Shown in pieces: positions 46,237 through 56,051 of a stretch of 64,000 bases of DNA. The notes under the pieces were generated by a model. It saw nothing but the letters and a program-made list of their open reading frames with translations, was not told the origin of the DNA and made no database searches. The position numbers were made by a program, and so were the translations under genes. How positions within the stretch are numbered: position 1 is the stretch's first letter; each line of letters begins with the position of its first letter. Location: assembly GCF_030252345.1 (NCBI RefSeq), contig NZ_CP126980.1, forward strand, positions 9,185,501-9,249,500, read 5' to 3'. The DNA is from Actinoplanes oblitus (GTDB lineage Bacteria > Actinomycetota > Actinomycetes > Mycobacteriales > Micromonosporaceae).

Positions 46237-47115
46237 TCAGCCGATGCCGCGATCCTCTTCGTTGATCATGCCGTTGCCCCAGATGTCGCCGGAACTCGTG
46301 CGGCCGCCCATCCGGGCCGTGCCGGCCGCGCTCCCGCTCGTCCGGCCCGAGCCGCGTTTCGCCGCCGCGGGGCCGCCCGGCCCGGCGACGGCGCCGGGGA
46401 GGTTGCCCGTCGCGGCGGAGGCGCCGGGAAGGTTGCCCGGGCCGGCCGCGTGGTGCAGCGGGTTGTCGGCGAGGCCGGTGCCGGTCGGGTCGGCGTTGCC
46501 GAGGTCGGCGGCGCCGGTGTCCCAGCCCGCACCCGGACCGCCCTCCGGGGCGTGCGGCACGGCCGGGCTGGTCGGCGCGTTCCGGTGCACGCGGGTGGCG
46601 ACCGACGCCGGCGAGGCGTAGTCCGGCTTGGTGAACAGGGTGTGCGAGGGGCCGGGCAGGCGCTTGACGCTGGCTCCGGTCGGGATCGGGCGGCCGCCGA
46701 GCACACCGCTCTCCACCAGCCCCTTGAAGGTGGTCAGGTCGGCCTTGAGACGGCGGTTCAGCGACTCCTGACCGTGCCGGTCGCTGGGCATGAGGAACGC
46801 GATGTCCGCCTCCAGCTGCGCGACGACCTGGGTCTTCGTCTCGCCCATCGGGCGCAGCGTGAGCGTCTCGGCGAGGAGCGGCCCCTCCATGGTCGACCAG
46901 GAGACCCGCTCGTCCGGCGACCGTTCGATGATCTGCGCGTCGAACTCCCGGCGCTTGCCGTCCACGTCCATGATCCAGTGCGTCTGGTCCGCGCCGGTGG
47001 TGGTCACCTGGCGGACCCCGGTCATGAACCTCGGGTAGTTCTCGAACGCGGCGAGTTGCTCGTACACCGTGTGCAGCGGTGCACTCACCTCGATGGCCTG
47101 CTGAACCATACTCAT
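46237..47115 (-). CDS. SRPBCC family protein with Gly/Ala/Pro-rich tail
   Basis: A 292-residue protein. Residues 3-145 form an SRPBCC/cyclase-like domain (MVQQAIEVSAPLHTVYEQLAAFENYPRFMTGVRQVTTTGADQTHWIMDVDGKRREFDAQI, ESLNRRLKADLTTFKGLVES). The last 130 residues are low complexity (Gly, Ala, Pro, Thr) and likely disordered. The family is often called cyclase/dehydrase; the ligand is unknown. The ATG at 47115 has GGGAGAG 6 bases upstream. Between the PHP gene and the kinase gene, with no clear operon partner. Confidence 0.8.
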   Translation of the reverse strand: MSMVQQAIEVSAPLHTVYEQLAAFENYPRFMTGVRQVTTTGADQTHWIMDVDGKRREFDAQIIERSPDERVSWSTMEGPLLAETLTLRPMGETKTQVVAQLEADIAFLMPSDRHGQESLNRRLKADLTTFKGLVESGVLGGRPIPTGASVKRLPGPSHTLFTKPDYASPASVATRVHRNAPTSPAVPHAPEGGPGAGWDTGAADLGNADPTGTGLADNPLHHAAGPGNLPGASAATGNLPGAVAGPGGPAAAKRGSGRTSGSAAGTARMGGRTSSGDIWGNGMINEEDRGIG

Positions 47116-47200
47116 CGCATCTCTCCCATGCTGAAGTGCTGGCATGACAGAGAGTACGGAGGCGAGTGCGACCCGTGTTCGCTTTCGCGGAGACCGGCTT

Positions 47201-47950
47201 TCAGACTCTGCGCAGGTACTGCCAGCCGCCCACCTCGGCGGCGTACCGGGCGTCACTCGCGGGCACCAGCGTCACCGCGGCGTCGCGCAGCAGCGCCACC
47301 AGGCGCGGGGACGGGCTGCGCCACGCCTCACTGATCTCCACCAGGGTGCCGGTGGCCCGGCAGGCGGCGGCCAGGTCGGCGAGCAGGGCCGGCGAGACCG
47401 CCGCGTCGTCGACGCCGGCCTGGGCCAGCAGGGCGAGCGGGCGGGCCAGCTGGGTGGGCACGTAACGGCAGGCTCGCTCCAGGCCCCGTACGGTGGCCTC
47501 GACCAGCCGCTCGGCGACCTGCTCGGCGGTCAGCTCGCCGGCCTCGACCCGGGCGCGCACGGCCCGGGCGTCCAGCAGTTCGTCGCCGAGCGGGAGGGCG
47601 GAGACCGCCACCGACAGCGCGTCCAACTGGGCCAGGTCGGCGGGCAGCGCCAGCCAGCCGTCCGGGCGGACCACCTCCACCTCGGCGGCCACCCGCAGGG
47701 TCATCTCGGTACGGTGCCGGGCCCGGCGCACGGCGTCCGCGTACGCGGTCAGCCAGGTGGTCTCCGGCCCGGCCTGGTCGGCGAAGGTCAGCGAGGTCAG
47801 CCCGGCCCGGTCGGCCGCCGAGGCCACCACGCCGACGGCGTCGCGCCCGGCCGCGAACCCGGTGTGCACGTGGGCATCCACCGTCAGGTCCAGCACGCAT
47901 GCGGTTCCGACCGCACCGCCGCCGATGACTGATTCCCGCTCTGCCGCCAC
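47201..47950 (-). CDS. PHP-domain-like protein with incomplete metal site
   Basis: A 249-residue protein with the first PHP motif HxH (VDAHVHTGFAAGRD) and barrel-like order (TSLTFADQAGPETTW, RVAAEVEVVRP, LVEISEAWRSPSPRLVALLRDAAVTLVPASDARYAAEVGGWQYL). Expected metal ligands are changed at two places: the usual TDH reads ADQ, and the late SDAH reads SDAR. It may have lost phosphoesterase activity. Start: GTG at 47950 with GGGGAG 5 bases upstream; that site lies inside a hairpin. Downstream of csrA, same strand, 118-base gap. Confidence 0.72.
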   Translation of the reverse strand: MAAERESVIGGGAVGTACVLDLTVDAHVHTGFAAGRDAVGVVASAADRAGLTSLTFADQAGPETTWLTAYADAVRRARHRTEMTLRVAAEVEVVRPDGWLALPADLAQLDALSVAVSALPLGDELLDARAVRARVEAGELTAEQVAERLVEATVRGLERACRYVPTQLARPLALLAQAGVDDAAVSPALLADLAAACRATGTLVEISEAWRSPSPRLVALLRDAAVTLVPASDARYAAEVGGWQYLRRV

Positions 47951-47955
47951 GTTCG

Positions 47956-47984
47956 CTCCCCGACTGAAGTTCACCGTCGGGGAG
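47956..47984 (-). promoter_or_regulatory. Hairpin covering the ribosome-binding site of the PHP-like gene
   Basis: On the minus strand CTCCCCGAC pairs with GTCGGGGAG around an 11-base loop. The right arm contains the GGGGAG ribosome-binding site and ends 5 bases before the GTG start. It could block translation or serve as an end for the csrA transcript; no T run follows. Confidence 0.55.
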
Positions 47985-48068
47985 AAGAATGCGGCCCCCG
48001 CGTTGTCTCCGGGGTCAGCAGCCGGTGCAGCTGAGGTGCGCCGCCACGCCCGCCGTGGCGGCCGCCCC

Positions 48069-48302
48069 TCACTCCGGCTTCTCGAGCATCCTGGTGACCG
48101 CCTGCACGGCGTCGTCGCTGGGCGACGCGGCCGCCCGGTTCGCCTCCTGCAGTTCGCGGTACACCTCTTCACGGTGTACGTGCACGTCGCGCGGAGCCTG
48201 GATACCCAGCCGGATGACGTCGCCGCGGGCCTCCAGCACGGTGATCACGATGTCGTCGCCGATCATCACGCTCTCGCCGGCCCGCCTGGTCAGCACAAGC
48301 AT
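48069..48302 (-). CDS. csrA: Carbon storage/flagellin translation regulator CsrA
   Basis: A 77-residue RNA-binding dimer subunit: MLVLTRRAGESVMIGDDIVITVLEARGDVIRLGIQAPRDVHVHREEVYREL, with the RNA-contacting N-terminal strand and the basic PRDVHVHREEV patch. It binds GGA motifs near ribosome-binding sites. The ATG at 48302 has GGAGGAGGAG about 7 bases upstream, itself containing GGA motifs, so CsrA may bind its own message. In B. subtilis CsrA is held by FliW; fliW is directly upstream here (gap 97 bases). Confidence 0.96.
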   Translation of the reverse strand: MLVLTRRAGESVMIGDDIVITVLEARGDVIRLGIQAPRDVHVHREEVYRELQEANRAAASPSDDAVQAVTRMLEKPE

Positions 48303-48399
48303 CGACGTCTCCTCCTCCAGTCGGCATGGCAAAGGCGCGGCCGCGAAGGAACGCGACCGCGCCTGCACTGAGGGTCGTGGACCGCCCCCGGCTGGAGAA

Positions 48400-48837
48400 T
48401 CAGAACGCCCGATTCATGATCGCGCGTACCGGGTAGCCCGAGCCGGTGAGAACCACCTGCTGCGCGCGCATGGTGTCCCGGTCCACCACGATCGGGGCCA
48501 GCAGGTTGGCGGTCGTCTCGTCCTGGCTGGCCGAGATGACCGTCAGCAGCAGCAGCCGGTCGGGGTCCTTGGTGTTCAGAGCCGCGAACGTGCTCTCGTC
48601 GATCTCGGGCGCGTACTCCGGGAAGAACGGCTCCGGCGGTGCGACCAGGAAACGCAGCTCAGGGTTGTCGAGCGACGTCAGGGCGTACAGCAAACCGTCT
48701 TCGTTCAGGCGCACCAGGACGAAATCCCGGTGCGCCGGGAACCCCGGCATGGGCGTCGCCATCGTGATGGTCGGCAGGCCCAGCGACGGGTCGGTCATCG
48801 TGGCCTCGATCGGTCGGGACATGGTGCGAGTAGTCAT
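48400..48837 (-). CDS. fliW: Flagellar assembly factor FliW
   Basis: A 145-residue protein (PTITMATPMPGFPAHRDFVLVRLNEDGLLYALTSLDNPELRFLVAPPEPFFPEYAPEI) typical of FliW, which binds CsrA until released by unexported flagellin. C-terminal part: LLLLTVISASQDETTANLLAPIVVDRDTMRAQQVVLTGSGYPVRAIM. ATG at 48837 is chosen for GAGG 5 bases upstream; a GTG at 48843 overlapping the flgL stop is also possible. Part of flgN-flgK-flgL-fliW-csrA. Confidence 0.94.
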   Translation of the reverse strand: MTTRTMSRPIEATMTDPSLGLPTITMATPMPGFPAHRDFVLVRLNEDGLLYALTSLDNPELRFLVAPPEPFFPEYAPEIDESTFAALNTKDPDRLLLLTVISASQDETTANLLAPIVVDRDTMRAQQVVLTGSGYPVRAIMNRAF

Positions 48838-48839
48838 GG

Positions 48840-49811
48840 TCACCTCAGGAAATCGATGAGCGAGGGCTGGATCACCTTGGCCGTGGCGGCCAGGGCGGCC
48901 TGATACGAGGTCTGCTGGAGCTGCAATTCCATGATCGCCTTGGGCAGGTCGACATCCTCGATATCAGACAACTGCGACGACACGGACATCAAGCGATCCT
49001 CAGCGGACTGCTTCATCTGGGTAACCCGATTGTATCGGGCACCTACGTCCGAAAGAGTGGATTTCAGGAGATCAGACGCTTTGTCAAGGTTCTGCACCGC
49101 CGAGCTCACTGACGCCCCGTCCCCGGACTTCATCGCCGCGGAAAGGTCGTCGAGCACCTTGAAGAGCTGCGCGGGGTTCGGCACCTTGTTGGCGGCGGTG
49201 ACCGGCTGGCCGGCCGCGTCGACGAAGCCGCCGTTCGCGTCGACCAGATAGTCGGACCCGAAGACCTCCGGACCCCGGACGTCGACCCGCACCTTGGCGT
49301 TCGGCCCGATGGCCCGTTCCACCACCCCGGACGCCTCGCCGACATATTTACCGGCCTGATACGCGTCGGCGTCCGGAGTGGCACCGCCGAAGACCGGCCG
49401 GTCCAGATACTTGGTGTTGGCGAACTGCAGGAGCGTGCCCTTGATCTGGTCGATCTCCACCGCGCGGGCGTTGTTCGCCTCCGGTGTGCTCTGGCTGCCT
49501 TCGCTCATCGCCTCCAGCGCCAGCTCACGGACCTTGCTGACCAGAGTGGTGGAGCTCTGCAGGGTGTCCTGCACGGCGCCGAGCCGGCCCACGGCGTCGT
49601 CGGCGTTCGCCGAGTACTTCTTGTTGGCCCGGACCTCGCCGCGCAACTGCAGCGCGGTCACCGTGCCGGTCGGTGAGTCCGACGGCCGGCTGAGCTGCTT
49701 GCCGCTGGAGATCTGGTCCTGCGCCTTCTGACTCGCGCTCAGTCCGCGCTGCAGGCCCGCCATCGCCCGGATGCGGGCGCTGCTCTCGGTCACTCGCGGG
49801 CTACTACTCAT
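48840..49811 (-). CDS. flgL: Flagellar hook-associated protein 3 (hook-filament junction)
   Basis: A 323-residue flagellin-like protein. N-terminal D0/D1 helices (RVTESSARIRAMAGLQRGLSASQKAQDQISSGKQLSRPSDSPTGTVTALQLR) and C-terminal helix (SDIEDVDLPKAIMELQLQQTSYQAALAATAKVIQPSLIDFLR) are typical FlgL. It connects FlgK to the filament. ATG at 49811 with GGGGGAG 6 bases upstream, 11 bases after flgK. Confidence 0.94.
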   Translation of the reverse strand: MSSSPRVTESSARIRAMAGLQRGLSASQKAQDQISSGKQLSRPSDSPTGTVTALQLRGEVRANKKYSANADDAVGRLGAVQDTLQSSTTLVSKVRELALEAMSEGSQSTPEANNARAVEIDQIKGTLLQFANTKYLDRPVFGGATPDADAYQAGKYVGEASGVVERAIGPNAKVRVDVRGPEVFGSDYLVDANGGFVDAAGQPVTAANKVPNPAQLFKVLDDLSAAMKSGDGASVSSAVQNLDKASDLLKSTLSDVGARYNRVTQMKQSAEDRLMSVSSQLSDIEDVDLPKAIMELQLQQTSYQAALAATAKVIQPSLIDFLR

Positions 49812-49822
49812 GAACGCTCCCC

Positions 49823-51262
49823 CTACCTACCGACCATGCCGGTTCGGTTGATCAATTGGTCGAGCATCGAGTCGATGGTGGTCAGCACCCGGGACGCGGC
49901 CTCGTAACCGCGCTGGTAGGTGAGCAGGTTGGTCATCTCCTCGTCGAGGTTGACCCCGGACTCCGCGTCGCGGGAGGCGTCCACCTGGTCGGTCACCGCG
50001 TTCTGCACGTCGCGCCGGCGGATCGAGGACTGCGCGGCGACGCCCAGGTCGCCGATCAGCGACTGGTACTCGGAGTCCGCGCCGCTGCGCGACGTGGCCA
50101 GGTCGGCCAGGGTGTCCGCCACCGTGCCGTCCAGGGCCTTCGCGGTCAGCCGGCCGGTGGGGTCGCCGCTGGAGACGGCCACCTTGGCCGGATCGGTCAC
50201 GCCGACCGAGATGGTCGCCGCGGTCACCGCCGTGCTGGTCGGGTCGTCACTGCGTACGAAGAAATCGAGGTTGGTGCTGCCGTCCGTGCTGTACCCGCCG
50301 TGATGCACCGGGTTGACCGTGTCGGCCAGCGTCTTGGCCACCTTGTCGAGCCGCTTGGCGACCCCGTCGATGGTGCCGCCCGCGGTGAGCGACTCCATCA
50401 TGGAGCCCATCGTGCCGCCCGGCCCGACCGCCGCCTGGGTGTCCGCCCAGCGCAGGTTCACCTTGCTGCTGGCGAGGTCCGCCAGGCGGTTGGCGCTGCC
50501 CGTCTCGATCTCGACCTTGCGGGTGGTGAACTCGGCGACCAGGGGCGAACTCCCGACGTAGACGCTTGTCGCGCCGTTCGGCAGGTCGGTACTGGTGGCG
50601 CCGGTCAGCTCGGAGAGCTTGAGGATCTGCTGCGACCGCTGGTCGATCAGCTCGTTGGCCTGCAACCCGGAGGCCTTGGCGAGGACGATCTCCTTGTTCA
50701 GCTTGGCGACCGACTCGGCCGCCTTGTTGACGTCCCCGACGTAGGTGTCCAGCCCCTTGCGGACCGACTGGAACTGGTTGTCCAGCGCCTTCGCCGCGTC
50801 GTTGAGCGTCGCCGCCACAGTGGTGGCCTGCTCGATCAGCGCGGATTTCGGCGCCGCCTTGTCCGGGTTCATCGAGACCGCGTTGAAGCCGTCCCACATG
50901 TCCTGCATGCGGGCCTGCAGGGCGGTGTCACTGGGCTCGGCGAAGACATCCTCGATCAGCGCGTACGCGCCGGCCTTGTCGTTGAGGTACGCCGAGTTCG
51001 CGTGCTCGGTGTAGGCGCGCTGGTCGAGGGCGGTGTTGCGGAGCTGCTCCACCGAGGAGACGGTGACGCCGTTGCCTACCGCGTCGGTGGTCGCGTACAC
51101 GCCCGCGACCAGGTTGGCGTTCTGGGATTGCATCACCACGCGTTGCCGGGTGTACCCCTCGGTGTTCGCGTTGGCGATGTTCTGGCCCGAGATGTCCAGG
51201 CCGCGGCGCTGCGCGTAGAGCGAGGTCAGCGCGGTGTTGAGTCCACTGAAAGTGCTTCCCAT
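49823..51262 (-). CDS. flgK: Flagellar hook-associated protein 1
   Basis: A 479-residue protein with the FlgK N-terminus (SGLNTALTSLYAQRRGLDISGQNIANANTEGYTRQRVVMQSQ) and C-terminus (ESGVNLDEEMTNLLTYQRGYEAASRVLTTIDSMLDQLINRTGMVGR). It forms the junction between hook and filament. ATG at 51262 overlaps the flgN stop by one base (TGATG), showing that the export chaperone and its client are coupled. Confidence 0.96.
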   Translation of the reverse strand: MGSTFSGLNTALTSLYAQRRGLDISGQNIANANTEGYTRQRVVMQSQNANLVAGVYATTDAVGNGVTVSSVEQLRNTALDQRAYTEHANSAYLNDKAGAYALIEDVFAEPSDTALQARMQDMWDGFNAVSMNPDKAAPKSALIEQATTVAATLNDAAKALDNQFQSVRKGLDTYVGDVNKAAESVAKLNKEIVLAKASGLQANELIDQRSQQILKLSELTGATSTDLPNGATSVYVGSSPLVAEFTTRKVEIETGSANRLADLASSKVNLRWADTQAAVGPGGTMGSMMESLTAGGTIDGVAKRLDKVAKTLADTVNPVHHGGYSTDGSTNLDFFVRSDDPTSTAVTAATISVGVTDPAKVAVSSGDPTGRLTAKALDGTVADTLADLATSRSGADSEYQSLIGDLGVAAQSSIRRRDVQNAVTDQVDASRDAESGVNLDEEMTNLLTYQRGYEAASRVLTTIDSMLDQLINRTGMVGR

Positions 51263-51747
51263 CAGATCGCCTCATCAACGAGGGTGGGGCGGCGCACGCC
51301 GCCGGTGACGGTCTGGCCCTGCGGCCCGTACGTTTCCACAGTCTCGGCGAACACGAGCATGGTTTCGCGAGCCGCGCGTTGCCCCGCGGTGAGCAGGTCA
51401 CGGTTGACGTCGGCCAGGGCCCGGATCTCCGACGTCAGGAGCAGGAACGCCTTACGGTGCTGGTGCAGCAGGTCCGACCAGGGGTCCGGAGCGGCGTCGG
51501 CCAGTTCACCGAGGGACGCTTCCGGGTTCAGGCCGAGCTCGGCGGCGACCTCCTGCGCGTAGGCGGCACGGATGACCTCGGTCTGCCGGATCTGGTCCAG
51601 TACCACCTCGACCTCCCGGGTGGCGTGGCTCAGCCAGCGAGATCGGTTCGCCGCGAGGAGCAGCTGCTCCTCCTCCAGCTTGAAGAGCAGCATCTCCAGC
51701 AGCTCGCGTGAGCGCCACAGGACACTGGCCAGATCGGTCAGGCTCAC
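51262..51747 (-). CDS. flgN: FlgN-type flagellar export chaperone
   Basis: A 161-residue helical protein (LTDLASVLWRSRELLEMLLFKLEEEQLLLAANRSRWLSHATREVEVVLDQIRQTEVIRA ... LADVNRDLLTAGQRAARETMLVFAETVETYGP) of the FlgN family, chaperone for FlgK and FlgL. The GTG at 51747 has GGAGG 6 bases upstream; frames further upstream are not conserved-looking. First gene of the leftward flagellar operon; a TcrA-box-like repeat is 31 bases before its start. Confidence 0.9.
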   Translation of the reverse strand: MSLTDLASVLWRSRELLEMLLFKLEEEQLLLAANRSRWLSHATREVEVVLDQIRQTEVIRAAYAQEVAAELGLNPEASLGELADAAPDPWSDLLHQHRKAFLLLTSEIRALADVNRDLLTAGQRAARETMLVFAETVETYGPQGQTVTGGVRRPTLVDEAI

Positions 51748-51777
51748 CCGGTCCTCCGTCGGTTCGCTGGTCGGGCC

Positions 51778-51795
51778 GCAACCGTTCGGCAACCC
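51778..51795. promoter_or_regulatory. TcrA-box-like direct repeat between flgN and fliC
   Basis: GCAACCG-TTCG-GCAACCC gives two 7-base units 11 bases apart, matching 13 of 14 positions of GCA(A/C)CCG-N4-GCA(A/C)CCG, the box recalled for the response regulator TcrA of A. missouriensis. It is close to flgN (31 bases) and 200 bases before fliC. Confidence 0.6.
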
Positions 51796-51899
51796 GCTCA
51801 TTCGGACAGGTCGGCATGTTCGCGGTGCCGCTGAGCGGTTTCCCCCAATCAGCATTTATCCGGTTCGCCGGAAAAGCCCGAGCGAATTTCGCAGAATCG

Positions 51900-51926
51900 C
51901 TCAGTGCCTCTCGGCCACCCGCCGAA
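51900..51926 (+). promoter_or_regulatory. FliA-type promoter of fliC
   Basis: CTCA (51900-51903), a 17-base spacer and GCCGAA (51921-51926) match CTCA-N15/17-GCCGAA, the FliA-family promoter form recalled for A. missouriensis. It is 69 bases before the fliC ATG, giving a leader of about 60 bases. Confidence 0.85.
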
Positions 51927-51994
51927 GGGAACAGCGCAACACCACGGCTCACGGACGGGCCGGTACCAGACCCCAGTCAAGGAGGAGTTTTTCC

Positions 51995-53230
51995 ATGGGT
52001 CTCCGCATCAACCAGAACATCGCCGCGCAGAACGCCTACCGGAACCTGTCGGTCACCGACAGCCAGATGTCGAAGTCGCTGGAGAAGCTGTCCAGCGGTT
52101 TCCGGATCAACCGGGCGGCGGACGACGCGGCCGGCCTCTCGATCTCCGAGGGCCTGCGGTCGCAGACCGGCGGTCTCAAGGTCGCCGTGCGCAACACCCA
52201 GGACGGCGTCAGCGTCGCGCAGACCGCTGAGGGTTCGCTCAACGAGGTCACCTCGATCCTGCAGCGTATGCGTGACCTGTCGGTGCAGACGTCGAACTCC
52301 GGCTCGATGGACGCCGACGCCAAGGGCGCCGCCGACAAGGAGATGCAGCAGCTCAACCAGGAGCTGGACCGGATCGGCAGCACCACGTCGTTCGGCAAGG
52401 CGAAGCTGCTGGACGGCTCGTTCGGCGCCACCGCCAAGACCACGGGTTCCACCCCGATCACCGCCGGCGCGAACATGACCGCCGCCGCCACCGCGCTCGC
52501 CGCGGGCGGCAGCTTCACCATCGACTCCGTCGACGGGCAGACGGTCTCCGGCGGCGTCTCGGTGAGCATCCCGGCCGGCGCGGTCTCGGCGACCTCCAGT
52601 GGCCAGGACATCGCCAAGGTCGTCAACGACGCGATCTCGACAGCGCTCAAGGGCAAGGGCTTCCAGGGCAACGAGGTCTCGATGTCCGCCAGCACCGCGT
52701 CCAACGGCGACGTCACCTTCAGCATGTCCGGCGTCGGTTCGTTCGGCATGACCGACGGCACCAACACGCCGCTCGGCGCCGTCGGCATGAGCGCCGCCCT
52801 GACCGGCGCCGCCAACTCGGTCTCCGGCGGCAACACCGGCCGGTTCCAGGTGGGCGCGAACGCCAACGCCAACGAGCGGATCGGTGTCGCCATCGGCGCC
52901 GTCAACTCGAACACGCTCGGCACCGCGAACCTCAGCCTGACCAGCTCCAACGGTCCGGCTGACGCGATCACCGCGATCGACAAGGCGATCAAGTCGGTGT
53001 CGGACACCCGGGCGAACCTCGGTGCGGTCCAGAACCGGTTCGAGCACACCATCAACAACCTGAACGTCGCGGTGGAGAACCTCTCCGCGTCCGAGTCCCG
53101 GATCCGGGACACCGACATGGCCCAGGAGATGGTCTCGTTCACCCGGAACCAGATCCTCACCCAGGCCGGCACCTCGATGCTGTCGCAGGCGAACCAGTCG
53201 GCGCAGGGCGTGCTGTCGCTGCTCCGCTAA
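51995..53230 (+). CDS. fliC: Flagellin
   Basis: A 411-residue flagellin, the filament subunit. N-terminal D0/D1 (about 1-140: LRINQNIAAQNAYRNLSVTDSQMSKSLEKLSSGFRINRAADDAAGLSISEGLRSQTGGL) and C-terminal domain (about 335-411: NLNVAVENLSASESRIRDTDMAQEMVSFTRNQILTQAGTSMLSQANQSAQGVLSLLR) frame a variable Ser/Thr/Ala/Gly-rich middle of about 190 residues. The ATG at 51995 has AAGGAGGAG 7 bases upstream, a strong site with GGA motifs that CsrA could cover. FliA-type promoter upstream, terminator at 53284. Back to back with flgN-flgK-flgL-fliW-csrA. Confidence 0.98.
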   Translation: MGLRINQNIAAQNAYRNLSVTDSQMSKSLEKLSSGFRINRAADDAAGLSISEGLRSQTGGLKVAVRNTQDGVSVAQTAEGSLNEVTSILQRMRDLSVQTSNSGSMDADAKGAADKEMQQLNQELDRIGSTTSFGKAKLLDGSFGATAKTTGSTPITAGANMTAAATALAAGGSFTIDSVDGQTVSGGVSVSIPAGAVSATSSGQDIAKVVNDAISTALKGKGFQGNEVSMSASTASNGDVTFSMSGVGSFGMTDGTNTPLGAVGMSAALTGAANSVSGGNTGRFQVGANANANERIGVAIGAVNSNTLGTANLSLTSSNGPADAITAIDKAIKSVSDTRANLGAVQNRFEHTINNLNVAVENLSASESRIRDTDMAQEMVSFTRNQILTQAGTSMLSQANQSAQGVLSLLR

Positions 53231-53283
53231 CCGAACTGAAACCGAGAGCAACTGAATCGGTGGCCTGATCGGCCGAAGAGGTA

Positions 53284-53313
53284 GGGGTAGCCGGCGAAAA
53301 AGTCGGCTACCCC
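53284..53313 (+). terminator. Terminator hairpin after fliC
   Basis: Perfect 10-bp arms (GGGGTAGCCG and complement) around a GCGAAAAAGT loop, 53 bases after the fliC stop and 36 before fliD. It may lower fliD expression relative to flagellin. Confidence 0.8.
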
Positions 53314-53349
53314 TCCCCATTCCAGCCCCTCTACCGAAAGCGAGCTAAC

Positions 53350-54753
53350 GTGAGCAGCTCTGTTGACGGCCTCGTCAGCGGCATGAGCACCTCCAGCATC
53401 ATCAGCCAGCTCATGCAGGTGGAGGCGGCCCCGCAGGACCGGCTCAAGACCAAGGTCAAGACCGCGCAGACGACGGTGGCCTCGTACCAGTCGGTGAACA
53501 GCAAGCTCTCCGCGCTGAAGAGCGCCGGCACCACCCTGGGCGACCTCGCCACCTGGCGCTCGATCAAGGCGACGTCCAGCTCGCCCTCGGTCACCGCGAC
53601 CGCGATGAGCAGCCTCACCAGCGCCGCCGGCTCCACCACGTTCGACGTGGTGCAGACCGCCGCGGCCCAGGTCACCACCACCGAGTACGCCGCCGGCAGC
53701 ACCGACATCACCGACGGCACCGGCGTGCTGACGGTCTCGCTCGGCTCGGGCGACCCGGTGACCGTGAACCTGACCGAGGACCGGACGCCCGCGGGCATCG
53801 CGGCCGCGATCAACAGCACCAGCGGCGTCGGTGTGCGCGCCGGCGTGGTGACCACCGCCTCCGGTGACAGCATCCTGCAGATCAGCAGCGCCAAGACCGG
53901 TGTCGCCAACGCCTTCACCGTCAACGGCCTGAGCGGTACCGGCAACGTCGTCACCGCCGCCTCGGACGCGAAGATCCGGGTCGGCTCGCTGGTCGACCCG
54001 AACGACGAGAACAGCGGCCTGACCCCGGGCAGCTACGAGGTCACCAACAGCAGCAACACCTTCACCAACCTGCTCAGCGGCGTCAACATCACGGTGACCA
54101 AGAAAGAGCAGAACGTCACCATCGACGCGCAGTCCGACGTGGCCGGCATCGCGGACAAGATGCAGGCGCTGGTCGACGCGGCCAACAGCGTGCTGTCCGA
54201 GGTGAGTTCACAGACCGCGTACGACGCCAGCACCAAGAAGGGCTCGCCGCTCACCGGCGACTTCATGGTCCGGAACATGACCCAGACCATCCTGGGCGCG
54301 GTCAGCGGCGGCCTGTCGTACGACAACCCGGACTACGTCAAGCCGACCGACCCCAACGACCCGGTGGAGAGCCCGGAGAACCCGCTGAAGATCGCCTTCG
54401 GCAGCCTCTCCAAGCTGGGTATCCAGCTCGACAGCACCGGCAAGCTGAGCTTCGACGCCACCAAGTTCACCGCCGCTTACAACGAGGACCCGGCCGCCAT
54501 CAAGAAGGCCGGCGTCGGCCTCGGCGACAACTTCGAGGCCCTCGCGAAGAAGCAGTCGGACTCGGTCACCTCGGTCATCACCGGCCGGAACAACGAGATC
54601 GACAACATGAACAGCCAGATCGAGAACTGGGACAGCCGGCTCGCTGCCCGGAAGCTGGCCCTGCAGAAGCAGTACACGGGTCTGGAAACGGCCCTCGGCA
54701 AGTTGAAGAACCAGTCCAACTGGCTCGCCGGGCAGCTCAGCGGTCTGGGATGA
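53350..54753 (+). CDS. fliD: Flagellar filament cap protein
   Basis: A 467-residue FliD. N-terminal region SVDGLVSGMSTSSIISQLMQVEAAPQDRLKTKVKTAQTTVASYQSVNSKLSALKSAGTTL and a C-terminal coiled coil (FEALAKKQSDSVTSVITGRNNEIDNMNSQIENWDSRLAARKLALQKQYTGLETALGKLKNQSNWLAGQLSGLG). It caps the growing filament and helps flagellin fold. The GTG at 53350 lies after the fliC terminator; no separate promoter motif is obvious, so read-through from fliC is likely. Confidence 0.95.
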   Translation: MSSSVDGLVSGMSTSSIISQLMQVEAAPQDRLKTKVKTAQTTVASYQSVNSKLSALKSAGTTLGDLATWRSIKATSSSPSVTATAMSSLTSAAGSTTFDVVQTAAAQVTTTEYAAGSTDITDGTGVLTVSLGSGDPVTVNLTEDRTPAGIAAAINSTSGVGVRAGVVTTASGDSILQISSAKTGVANAFTVNGLSGTGNVVTAASDAKIRVGSLVDPNDENSGLTPGSYEVTNSSNTFTNLLSGVNITVTKKEQNVTIDAQSDVAGIADKMQALVDAANSVLSEVSSQTAYDASTKKGSPLTGDFMVRNMTQTILGAVSGGLSYDNPDYVKPTDPNDPVESPENPLKIAFGSLSKLGIQLDSTGKLSFDATKFTAAYNEDPAAIKKAGVGLGDNFEALAKKQSDSVTSVITGRNNEIDNMNSQIENWDSRLAARKLALQKQYTGLETALGKLKNQSNWLAGQLSGLG

Positions 54754-55600: not shown

Positions 55601-55626
55601 CTCAGCGGATCGCCGGGCCCGCCGAA
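55601..55626 (+). promoter_or_regulatory. FliA-type promoter of the flgB operon
   Basis: CTCA (55601-55604), 16-base spacer, GCCGAA (55621-55626). It is 78 bases before the flgB start and immediately after the TcrA-like repeat. Confidence 0.83.
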
Positions 55627-55703
55627 CTGCATGGTACGAGCACGGATTGCTCACCGAAGTGCCACGGAACGGCGACCAGACGGATCGATCAGGGAGCTGC
55701 GAA

Positions 55704-56051
55704 GTGTTCGACGACATTTCCACGGCTGCGCTGCGCGTCGCTGTCACCGGCCTGTCGGCCCGGCAGAACGCCATTGCGAACAACATCGCGAACGTCGAGA
55801 CCCCGGGCTTCCATGCCCGTAAGGTCAAGTTCGAGGAGGCTCTTCAGGGCGCCGTCGCCCGCGGCCAGTCGCCGCTGGGCATCAACCCGAGCGTCCAGGA
55901 GTCGCTGGAGCCCACCCGGCTCAACGGCAACAACGTCAACCTCGACGAGGAGACGCTGTCGCACATCGACACCACGATGCGCTACCAGCTCACCCTCCGG
56001 GCCATCGACAGCAAGTACGGCCTGCTGCGCGACGCCATCAAGGGAGCCTGA
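55704..56051 (+). CDS. flgB: Flagellar basal-body rod protein FlgB
   Basis: A 115-residue proximal rod protein: VFDDISTAALRVAVTGLSARQNAIANNIANVETPGFHARKVKFEEAL carries the rod/hook motif ANNIANVETPGF, and VNLDEETLSHIDTTMRYQLTLRAIDSKYGLLRDAIKG is the FlgB C-terminus. GTG at 55704 with GGGAG 8 bases upstream. First gene of flgB-flgC-fliE-fliF-fliG-fliH-fliI, with its own promoter region. Confidence 0.96.
   Translation: MFDDISTAALRVAVTGLSARQNAIANNIANVETPGFHARKVKFEEALQGAVARGQSPLGINPSVQESLEPTRLNGNNVNLDEETLSHIDTTMRYQLTLRAIDSKYGLLRDAIKGA

Follow-up and report, generated by a model that had tools for sequence, protein, structure and literature searches.

Locus and gene content

The window examined here, a stretch of 64,000 nucleotides from the 9.8-Mb single-contig genome of Actinoplanes oblitus (NZ_CP126980.1, positions 9,185,501 to 9,249,500), contains flagellar genes among which a leftward run of flgN, flgK, flgL, fliW and csrA stands back to back with the flagellin gene fliC (Table 1). 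The genome gave one csrA match at E <= 0.001. In the fliC leader a hairpin with a GGA motif in its loop precedes a second GGA motif over the Shine-Dalgarno sequence, and the leader of flgB, the first gene of the rod operon, carries two more hairpins of this kind. From the sequence evidence we consider it very probable that the region encodes a CsrA-FliW-flagellin switch, with flgB as an added likely target.

A first-pass annotation, made from the letters alone, had named the genes of the leftward run and fliC, and Pfam agreed with these identities; fliD and fliS were likewise identified by Pfam. The divergent layout that it described, and the ribosome-binding sequence AAGGAGGAG at 51979-51987, are exact in the sequence. 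In NCBIfam flgN had no match, fliW and flagellin scored below cut-off only, and flgC reached 94.7 bits against TIGR01395, below its cut-off of 102.1; fliE and fliF were assigned by Pfam. For comparison, 80 csrA loci were collected from relatives, the 45 nearest named ones (L002-L046, 79-92% identity) being Actinoplanes and close relatives. The fliC start could be placed in 46 of the 80, giving 47 leaders with that of the window.

Table 1. Genes and predicted regulatory features of the window, with coordinates
Feature	Coordinates	Strand	Basis
csrA, 77 aa, C-terminal extension	48069..48302	-	PF02599 E 9e-26; NCBIfam CsrA above cut-off
csrA Shine-Dalgarno GGAGGAGGAG	48309..48318	-	Sequence; no ANGGA context
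fliW	48400..48843	-	PF02623 E 4e-31; PDB 5dmb FliW E 2.6e-14; start GTG 48843 or internal
flgL	48840..49811	-	Pfam; TIGR02550 189 bits, above cut-off
flgK	49823..51262	-	Pfam; TIGR02492 308 bits, above cut-off
flgN, GTG start, heads leftward run	51262..51747	-	PF05130 E 2e-20
Predicted sigma-FliA/WhiG-like fliC promoter, CTCA - 17 nt - GCCGAA	51900..51926	+	
fliC CsrA site 1 (predicted), hairpin CGGCUC-(ACGGAC)-GGGCCG	51945..51962	+	
fliC CsrA site 2 (predicted) over Shine-Dalgarno, UCAAGGAGGAG	51977..51987	+	
fliC flagellin, 411 aa	51995..53230	+	PF00669 E 3e-40, PF00700 E 1e-29
Predicted flgB promoter, same kind as that of fliC, CTCA - 16 nt - GCCGAA	55601..55626	+	
flgB leader site A (predicted), hairpin GAGC-(ACGGAUU)-GCUC, predicted at mRNA 5' end	55638..55652	+	
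flgB leader site B (predicted), hairpin GCC-(ACGGAAC)-GGC, 22 nt past site A	55661..55673	+	
flgB, first in flgB-flgC-fliE-fliF	55704..56051	+	TIGR01396 FlgB 72.3 bits, above cut-off

The fliC leader

CsrA favours a hexaloop that contains GGA and, two bases before it, a conserved A (PMC7652899). The fliC leader has two places with this A-N-GGA pattern. CGGAC (51952-51956), one of two upstream motifs pointed out in the first-pass annotation, is part of the hexaloop ACGGAC of site 1, whose loop is open in the predicted fold of the window leader; the hairpin itself had gone unmentioned, as had those before flgB. The other motif, GGGAA (51927-51931), was probably a wrong call. The predicted promoter boxes lie at 51900-51903 (CTCA) and 51921-51926 (GCCGAA), resembling a flagellar sigma consensus of TAAA / GCCGATAA (PMC8325347), and the transcript would start near 51934. 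Since GGGAA abuts the -10 box it probably precedes the start of transcription, and it was rejected as a leader CsrA site. A loose form of the sigma-FliA/WhiG-like motif occurs in 39 of the 47 leaders, a count for which the chance level was not computed. Both GGA motifs noted earlier in the ribosome-binding site are present, the first alone in an ANGGA context; the core of site 2 over the Shine-Dalgarno is UCAAGGAGG.

Site 2 was conserved throughout, CANGGAGG being present in all 47 leaders as TCAAGGAGGA (43), TCAGGGAGGA (3) or TCACGGAGGA (1), and the A two bases ahead of GGA was retained where the intervening base is C or G. In 33 of the 47 leaders an ANGGAN hexaloop sits on an unbroken stem of 6 or 7 bp, and minimum-energy folds placed ANGGA in a loop closed by at least 5 bp in 43, the exceptions being L020, L045, L046 and L051. 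Actinosynnema and Actinophytocola have their own complementary hairpin arms, that of Actinophytocola with an A-A mismatch. In alignment A2, made of 32 leaders picked for contiguous stems (15 of the 47 being omitted, so that its 100% pairing is by selection), two of the six stem pairs were altered on both sides, which none of 500 shuffles reached, although the shuffles leave relatedness in. Alignment A3, of 52 model-fitted sequences and thus biased toward the structure, gave three of six.

Such hairpins are scarce elsewhere. Among 2,631 ANGGAN hexamers in 667,698 bases (45 sources, both strands) only 39 were closed by a stem of at least 6 bp, and 32 of these 39 were the fliC leaders; the background rate was 0.3-0.7% for three other loop motifs and 0.4% for any hexamer. 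Within the window, fliC is the sole start codon with both an upstream ANGGAN hexaloop and a Shine-Dalgarno-like site, in a scan that required a stem of at least 5 bp 15-75 nt upstream and did not count 7-nt loops such as those of flgB. A hairpin of at least 6 bp was present in 32 of 44 fliC leaders and in no leader of csrA (46), fliW (43), flgL (39), flgK (46), flgN (46), fliD (42) or fliS (41); with the threshold lowered to 4 bp, hairpins were counted in 10 of 46 csrA leaders and 1 of 46 flgN leaders. CANGGAGG occurred in 44 of 44 fliC leaders versus 0-2 for the seven neighbouring genes. The exception in this gene control was flgB, where one of three leaders carries a hairpin of 6 bp or more, and it led to the second element described below.

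A model of the element (R1) matched the fliC leader of its own genome at 62 bits (E 2e-14), the next match being at 19.4 bits (E 0.09), and the seven next-ranked places were all inside long open frames. R1 matched 60 of 60 genomes of the genus, where the genes behind the matches were not each checked, and four additional strong matches (in G415, G431 and G433) precede flagellin paralogues. R1 also found sites ahead of flagellin genes in Anaerovibrio (L078, E 0.0005; L077, E 0.008) and in Heliorestis (L064, E 0.002); a fourth such match, L070, ends at a contig end. Rfam gave zero families matching 47000-54000, on the fliC side, at E up to 1.

Some Actinoplanes carry extra flagellin genes (L211, L212, L213), three of them clustered in G433 and others standing apart in G415 and G431; each has a two-site leader of its own. 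A GGCCC-ACGGAC-GGGCC hairpin (L214) also lies ahead of a non-flagellin frame in G443 (model E 0.009), probably by chance.

A sample of 396 genomes from the phylum contained 60 that bear flagellin. From these, 51 leaders were taken, one copy each and with script-chosen starts, one leader being cut by a contig end; the window's own was omitted, as were G005, G035, G151, G172, G189, G197, G344 and G359 (partial or FlgL-like matches). Of the 51, 22 carried an ANGGAN hairpin with a stem of 4 bp or more versus 0.4 expected, a figure that is slightly low because the hairpin search extends 8 nt past the 3' limit of the shuffled part, and 47 of the 51 had ANGGA close to the start. The two-site form, as judged from these sequences, is widespread in the phylum but not universal.

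The flgB leader

The predicted flgB promoter has its boxes at 55601-55604 (CTCA) and 55621-55626 (GCCGAA), from which the flgB mRNA would start near 55634, just ahead of hairpin A. Leaders were obtained from 19 of 20 further genomes, and as L017 and L223 are apparently the same record, the resulting 22 Actinoplanes leaders represent 21 genomes. Both hairpins were present in all 22. The A and the GGA are invariant in both loops, and the base between them is C or A in site A and any of A, C, G and T in site B. RNAalifold on these leaders returned precisely hairpins A and B without prompting. The closing pair of site A is G-C in 6 leaders, A-U in 4 and absent in 11. ANGGA at the flgB Shine-Dalgarno was found in only 15 of 22 and is thus not the conserved part. 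A model of this element (R2) had a single match in its own genome (E 1e-16) and matched 60 of 60 genus genomes, again without each gene behind a match being checked. In other families, two such hairpins were found in five of seven flgB leaders (L236, L237, L239, L240 and L241), and neither in L238, whose start is uncertain. Two such loops 15-35 nt apart occur nowhere else in the window and at 15 places in 30,896 background stretches, of which three are all of the flgB leaders present there, two are fliC leaders and seven are one homologous coding place.

The GCUC 3' arm of hairpin A can pair in the predicted fold with the flgB Shine-Dalgarno region at about 55690-55700, so that hairpin A may be connected with the opening of the ribosome site.

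These hairpins spoke against a candidate reading, since rejected, in which R1 matching fliC only would have made CsrA a dedicated flagellin regulator; given their conservation, CsrA is probably not dedicated to flagellin. We regard flgB as a likely CsrA target, with several results on the other side of the scale. Most stem pairs are invariant across the leaders, and covariation is thin; with other families added, one more pair alters on both sides, though 37 of 500 shuffles also attain two pairs of this kind. The Kineococcus leader (L235) has one clear loop only. A further model, R3, matched six of 64 genomes at E below 0.001, every one of them used in building it, and had no match at E below 0.05 in 56 flagellated genomes outside the class, nor in G062; either Actinomycetia alone have the element, or it has diverged too far elsewhere. 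In Campylobacter jejuni, flgB mRNA was not enriched with CsrA (1.6-fold, PMC4894983). Folded in full, the flgB leader of the window (z 0.28) has a minimum-energy structure without hairpin A, whose arms pair instead with the Shine-Dalgarno and start region, a prediction that either speaks against the hairpin being stable or points to a possible switch.

Both the fliC and the flgB elements adjoin predicted promoters. Inverted repeats can serve as operators, and the hairpins and the Shine-Dalgarno might accordingly have been conserved as DNA operators, or for mRNA stability or translation strength, with no role for CsrA. We consider this improbable. What is invariant in the loops is A-N-GGA with the middle base free, and stem letters change while pairing holds; the two leaders have the loop in common but not the stem letters. 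The A ahead of GGA is likewise kept at the fliC Shine-Dalgarno with C or G between, and matches extend to flagellin leaders of csrA-bearing Firmicutes.

CsrA, FliW and their distribution

The CsrA of the window has the RNA-binding residue R44 and also N55. Asn55 and V51 are required for FliW binding by C. jejuni CsrA, and N55D blocks it in Bacillus subtilis (PMC7829508). R44 was present in 66 of 66 actinobacterial CsrAs examined. All 50 CsrAs taken from genomes with FliW had N55, which was found in 0 of the 16 remaining ones, 13 from genomes without a FliW match and 3 orphan second copies. This count omits seven of the 57 genomes with both FliW and CsrA (the window's own, G020, G048, G051, G060, G094 and the partial G129), the partial G135 and second copies in G016 and G080; G293 and G381, which had no FliW match and whose residue 55 is N and R respectively, were also excluded. 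In the FliW group residue 51 is I, V, L or M, and all 45 CsrAs of the Actinoplanes group have N55 with L51.

CsrAs without N55 (L089, L151-L167) occur in Actinobacteria without flagellin and as a second copy in three flagellated ones. L053 comes from a record named Streptomyces sp. NP160; the csrA in it resembles the query to about the same degree as Kineococcus and Quadrisphaera csrA do, and the record may be misnamed.

That CsrA is rare in actinobacteria, as had been stated at the outset, is right insofar as csrA is uncommon (73 of the 396 genomes) but misleading for flagellated members, 58 of the 60 having it. FliW was found in 58 of the 396; of the flagellin-bearing genomes 57 had fliW and 56 both genes, and csrA without flagellin occurred in fifteen genomes.

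FliW binds flagellin in B. subtilis (PMC6070490), and the protein here is distant from the solved FliW structures (E 2.6e-14 at best). One could therefore imagine that CsrA represses fliC while FliW acts only as a flagellin chaperone, with no homeostatic loop. The tracking of FliW by N55 in 66 actinobacterial CsrAs is hard to explain unless FliW touches CsrA, and we judge a chaperone-only role very unlikely.

Leaders within the csrA run

The first-pass annotation had also proposed csrA autoregulation through the GGA motifs of GGAGGAGGAG. The csrA leader of the window, including this site, has no ANGGA, and the proposal was rejected for this genome. Among relatives, ANGGA lies near the csrA start in 40 of 46 csrA leaders; the window is among the six without it, as are L002, L010, L016 and L019. 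Lineage-specific autoregulation of csrA is therefore possible among the relatives.

Between fliW and csrA is a gap of 97 nt with a 13-bp hairpin (48333-48364, - strand). A perfect stem of at least 9 bp was found in this gap at 34 of 46 loci, the window included, versus 248 of 1840 random stretches, and the hairpin may set the FliW:CsrA ratio. At the head of the run, the flgN ribosome-binding site is ACGGAGG in 39 of 46 loci (51753-51759, - strand, in the window), which could be a lone weak CsrA site that closes another loop.

In many bacteria CsrA acts globally (PMC7652899), and the flgB sites, the flgN ACGGAGG and the ANGGA of most csrA leaders would all suit a broad regulator as in Escherichia coli, with many non-flagellar targets of which fliC and flgB merely show the clearest sites. 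R1 and R2, however, gave one convincing match each in the genome, and in the phylum csrA goes with flagellin. As each model depends on its own stem letters, R1 having missed flgB, there may be further CsrA targets. We hold such a broad role to be rather unlikely.

Proposed regulation

We infer CsrA binding, repression and partner switching from the sequence in the following form. A CsrA dimer would grip fliC mRNA at the hairpin loop ACGGAC, about 40 nt upstream of the start codon, and bridge to UCAAGGAGG over the Shine-Dalgarno, excluding the ribosome. FliW would bind CsrA near Asn55 and free the mRNA, and cytoplasmic flagellin would capture FliW, so that, as we propose, flagellin is translated only during its export. 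CsrA probably also binds the two hairpins at the 5' end of flgB mRNA, where its effect could be repression, protection or activation.

That fliC is under a CsrA-FliW switch, as the first-pass annotation had suggested, is the part of this scheme in which we have the highest confidence. It is well supported by the covarying two-site element, by R44 and N55, and by the co-occurrence of csrA, fliW and flagellin. Several observations weigh against it. RNAalifold on a plain MAFFT alignment of the fliC leaders (A1) did not recover the stem, giving three pairs in another register and no covariation. The fliC Shine-Dalgarno is mostly paired in the predicted fold, and the stability of the leader is unremarkable (z -0.03). 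A strong Shine-Dalgarno is itself AAGGAGG, so that site 2 alone is weak evidence, and 29 of the 51 phylum leaders had no hairpin of at least 4 bp. Position 51 of the window CsrA is Leu, while V51 mattered in C. jejuni, and in Clostridioides difficile the Shine-Dalgarno site alone was required (PMC11898703). A literature search confined to openly licensed papers brought up no binding, toeprint or mutant data from any actinobacterium.

In Actinoplanes missouriensis the flagellar genes are described as transcribed simultaneously with no transcriptional checkpoint, and the post-transcriptional part "remains unknown" according to a 2021 review (PMC8306008). A 2023 study reports FlgM to be absent from the later actinobacterial classes (PMC10746217). 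In our sample the Pfam model PF04316, which a divergent FlgM may escape, picked up FlgM in 22 of the 60 flagellin-bearing genomes. The 4 of these 60 that belong to the class of the window gave no match, and neither did 20 near relatives, the A. oblitus genome itself included. We tentatively suggest that in FlgM-less Actinomycetia CsrA-FliW might replace the transcriptional checkpoint and order assembly, with CsrA restraining fliC and acting on the rod operon through the flgB 5' hairpins, and flagellin export flipping both through FliW. CsrA could protect flgB mRNA, as with flhDC, or free a Shine-Dalgarno that may otherwise pair with the arm of hairpin A. The CsrA-type elements on fliC and flgB are concrete candidates for a checkpoint where a transcriptional one was reported missing, and one protein may order the whole of flagellar assembly in a soil bacterium with swimming spores. 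The N55 pattern (50 of 50 versus 0 of 16) provides a simple rule separating FliW-controlled CsrAs from others in the phylum.

Comparison with known systems

In actinobacteria, FliW has been proposed as a possible CsrA regulator, among other groups (PMC4682653), and an expression table for an Actinosynnema phoP mutant has fliW and csrA among the flagellar genes, fliW being up 4.37-fold (PMC9019756). A 2008 account of the zoospore former Kineococcus radiotolerans placed csrA in a motility island and predicted, in the flagellin leader, a 9-of-12 match to the B. subtilis site that overlaps the Shine-Dalgarno; no hairpin site, conservation test or FliW was found in the available text of that account (PMC2587704).

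The Hag-FliW-CsrA system of B. subtilis resembles the A. oblitus locus in its fliW-csrA pair, in N55 and in its two flagellin-leader sites, one of them over the Shine-Dalgarno (PMC7652899, PMC6529632). The B. subtilis pair is coupled in translation (PMC6529632), whereas here the hairpin-bearing gap of 97 nt separates the two genes; such coupling is a detail of B. subtilis and not general to the switch. B. subtilis also has FlgM, for which there was no Pfam match here, and no B. subtilis counterpart of the flgB leader sites was found in the literature examined, as far as its available text goes.

In C. jejuni the flaA leader likewise has two ANGGA stem-loops, of which the second covers the ribosome site, and its relatives show compensatory changes (PMC4894983). 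CsrA binds several flagellar mRNAs there and is antagonised by FliW via N55 (PMC4894983, PMC7829508); a difference is that its targets include flgI, flgH and flgE (PMC4894983). The FliC-FliW-CsrA system of C. difficile has predicted sites at -45 to -34 and -20 to -9, a spacing close to that found here (PMC11898703).

E. coli offers a parallel for each element, a hairpin-loop site bridged to a Shine-Dalgarno site in glgC, as proposed for fliC, and two sites near the mRNA 5' end in flhDC, as for flgB, whose 5' end is predicted here; its antagonists are the CsrB and CsrC RNAs, and CsrA protects flhDC (PMC7652899). On the sequence evidence the fliC switch is thus a well-supported case of the switch known from B. 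subtilis, C. jejuni and C. difficile, to which the paired hairpins on the rod-operon leader are likely a new addition.

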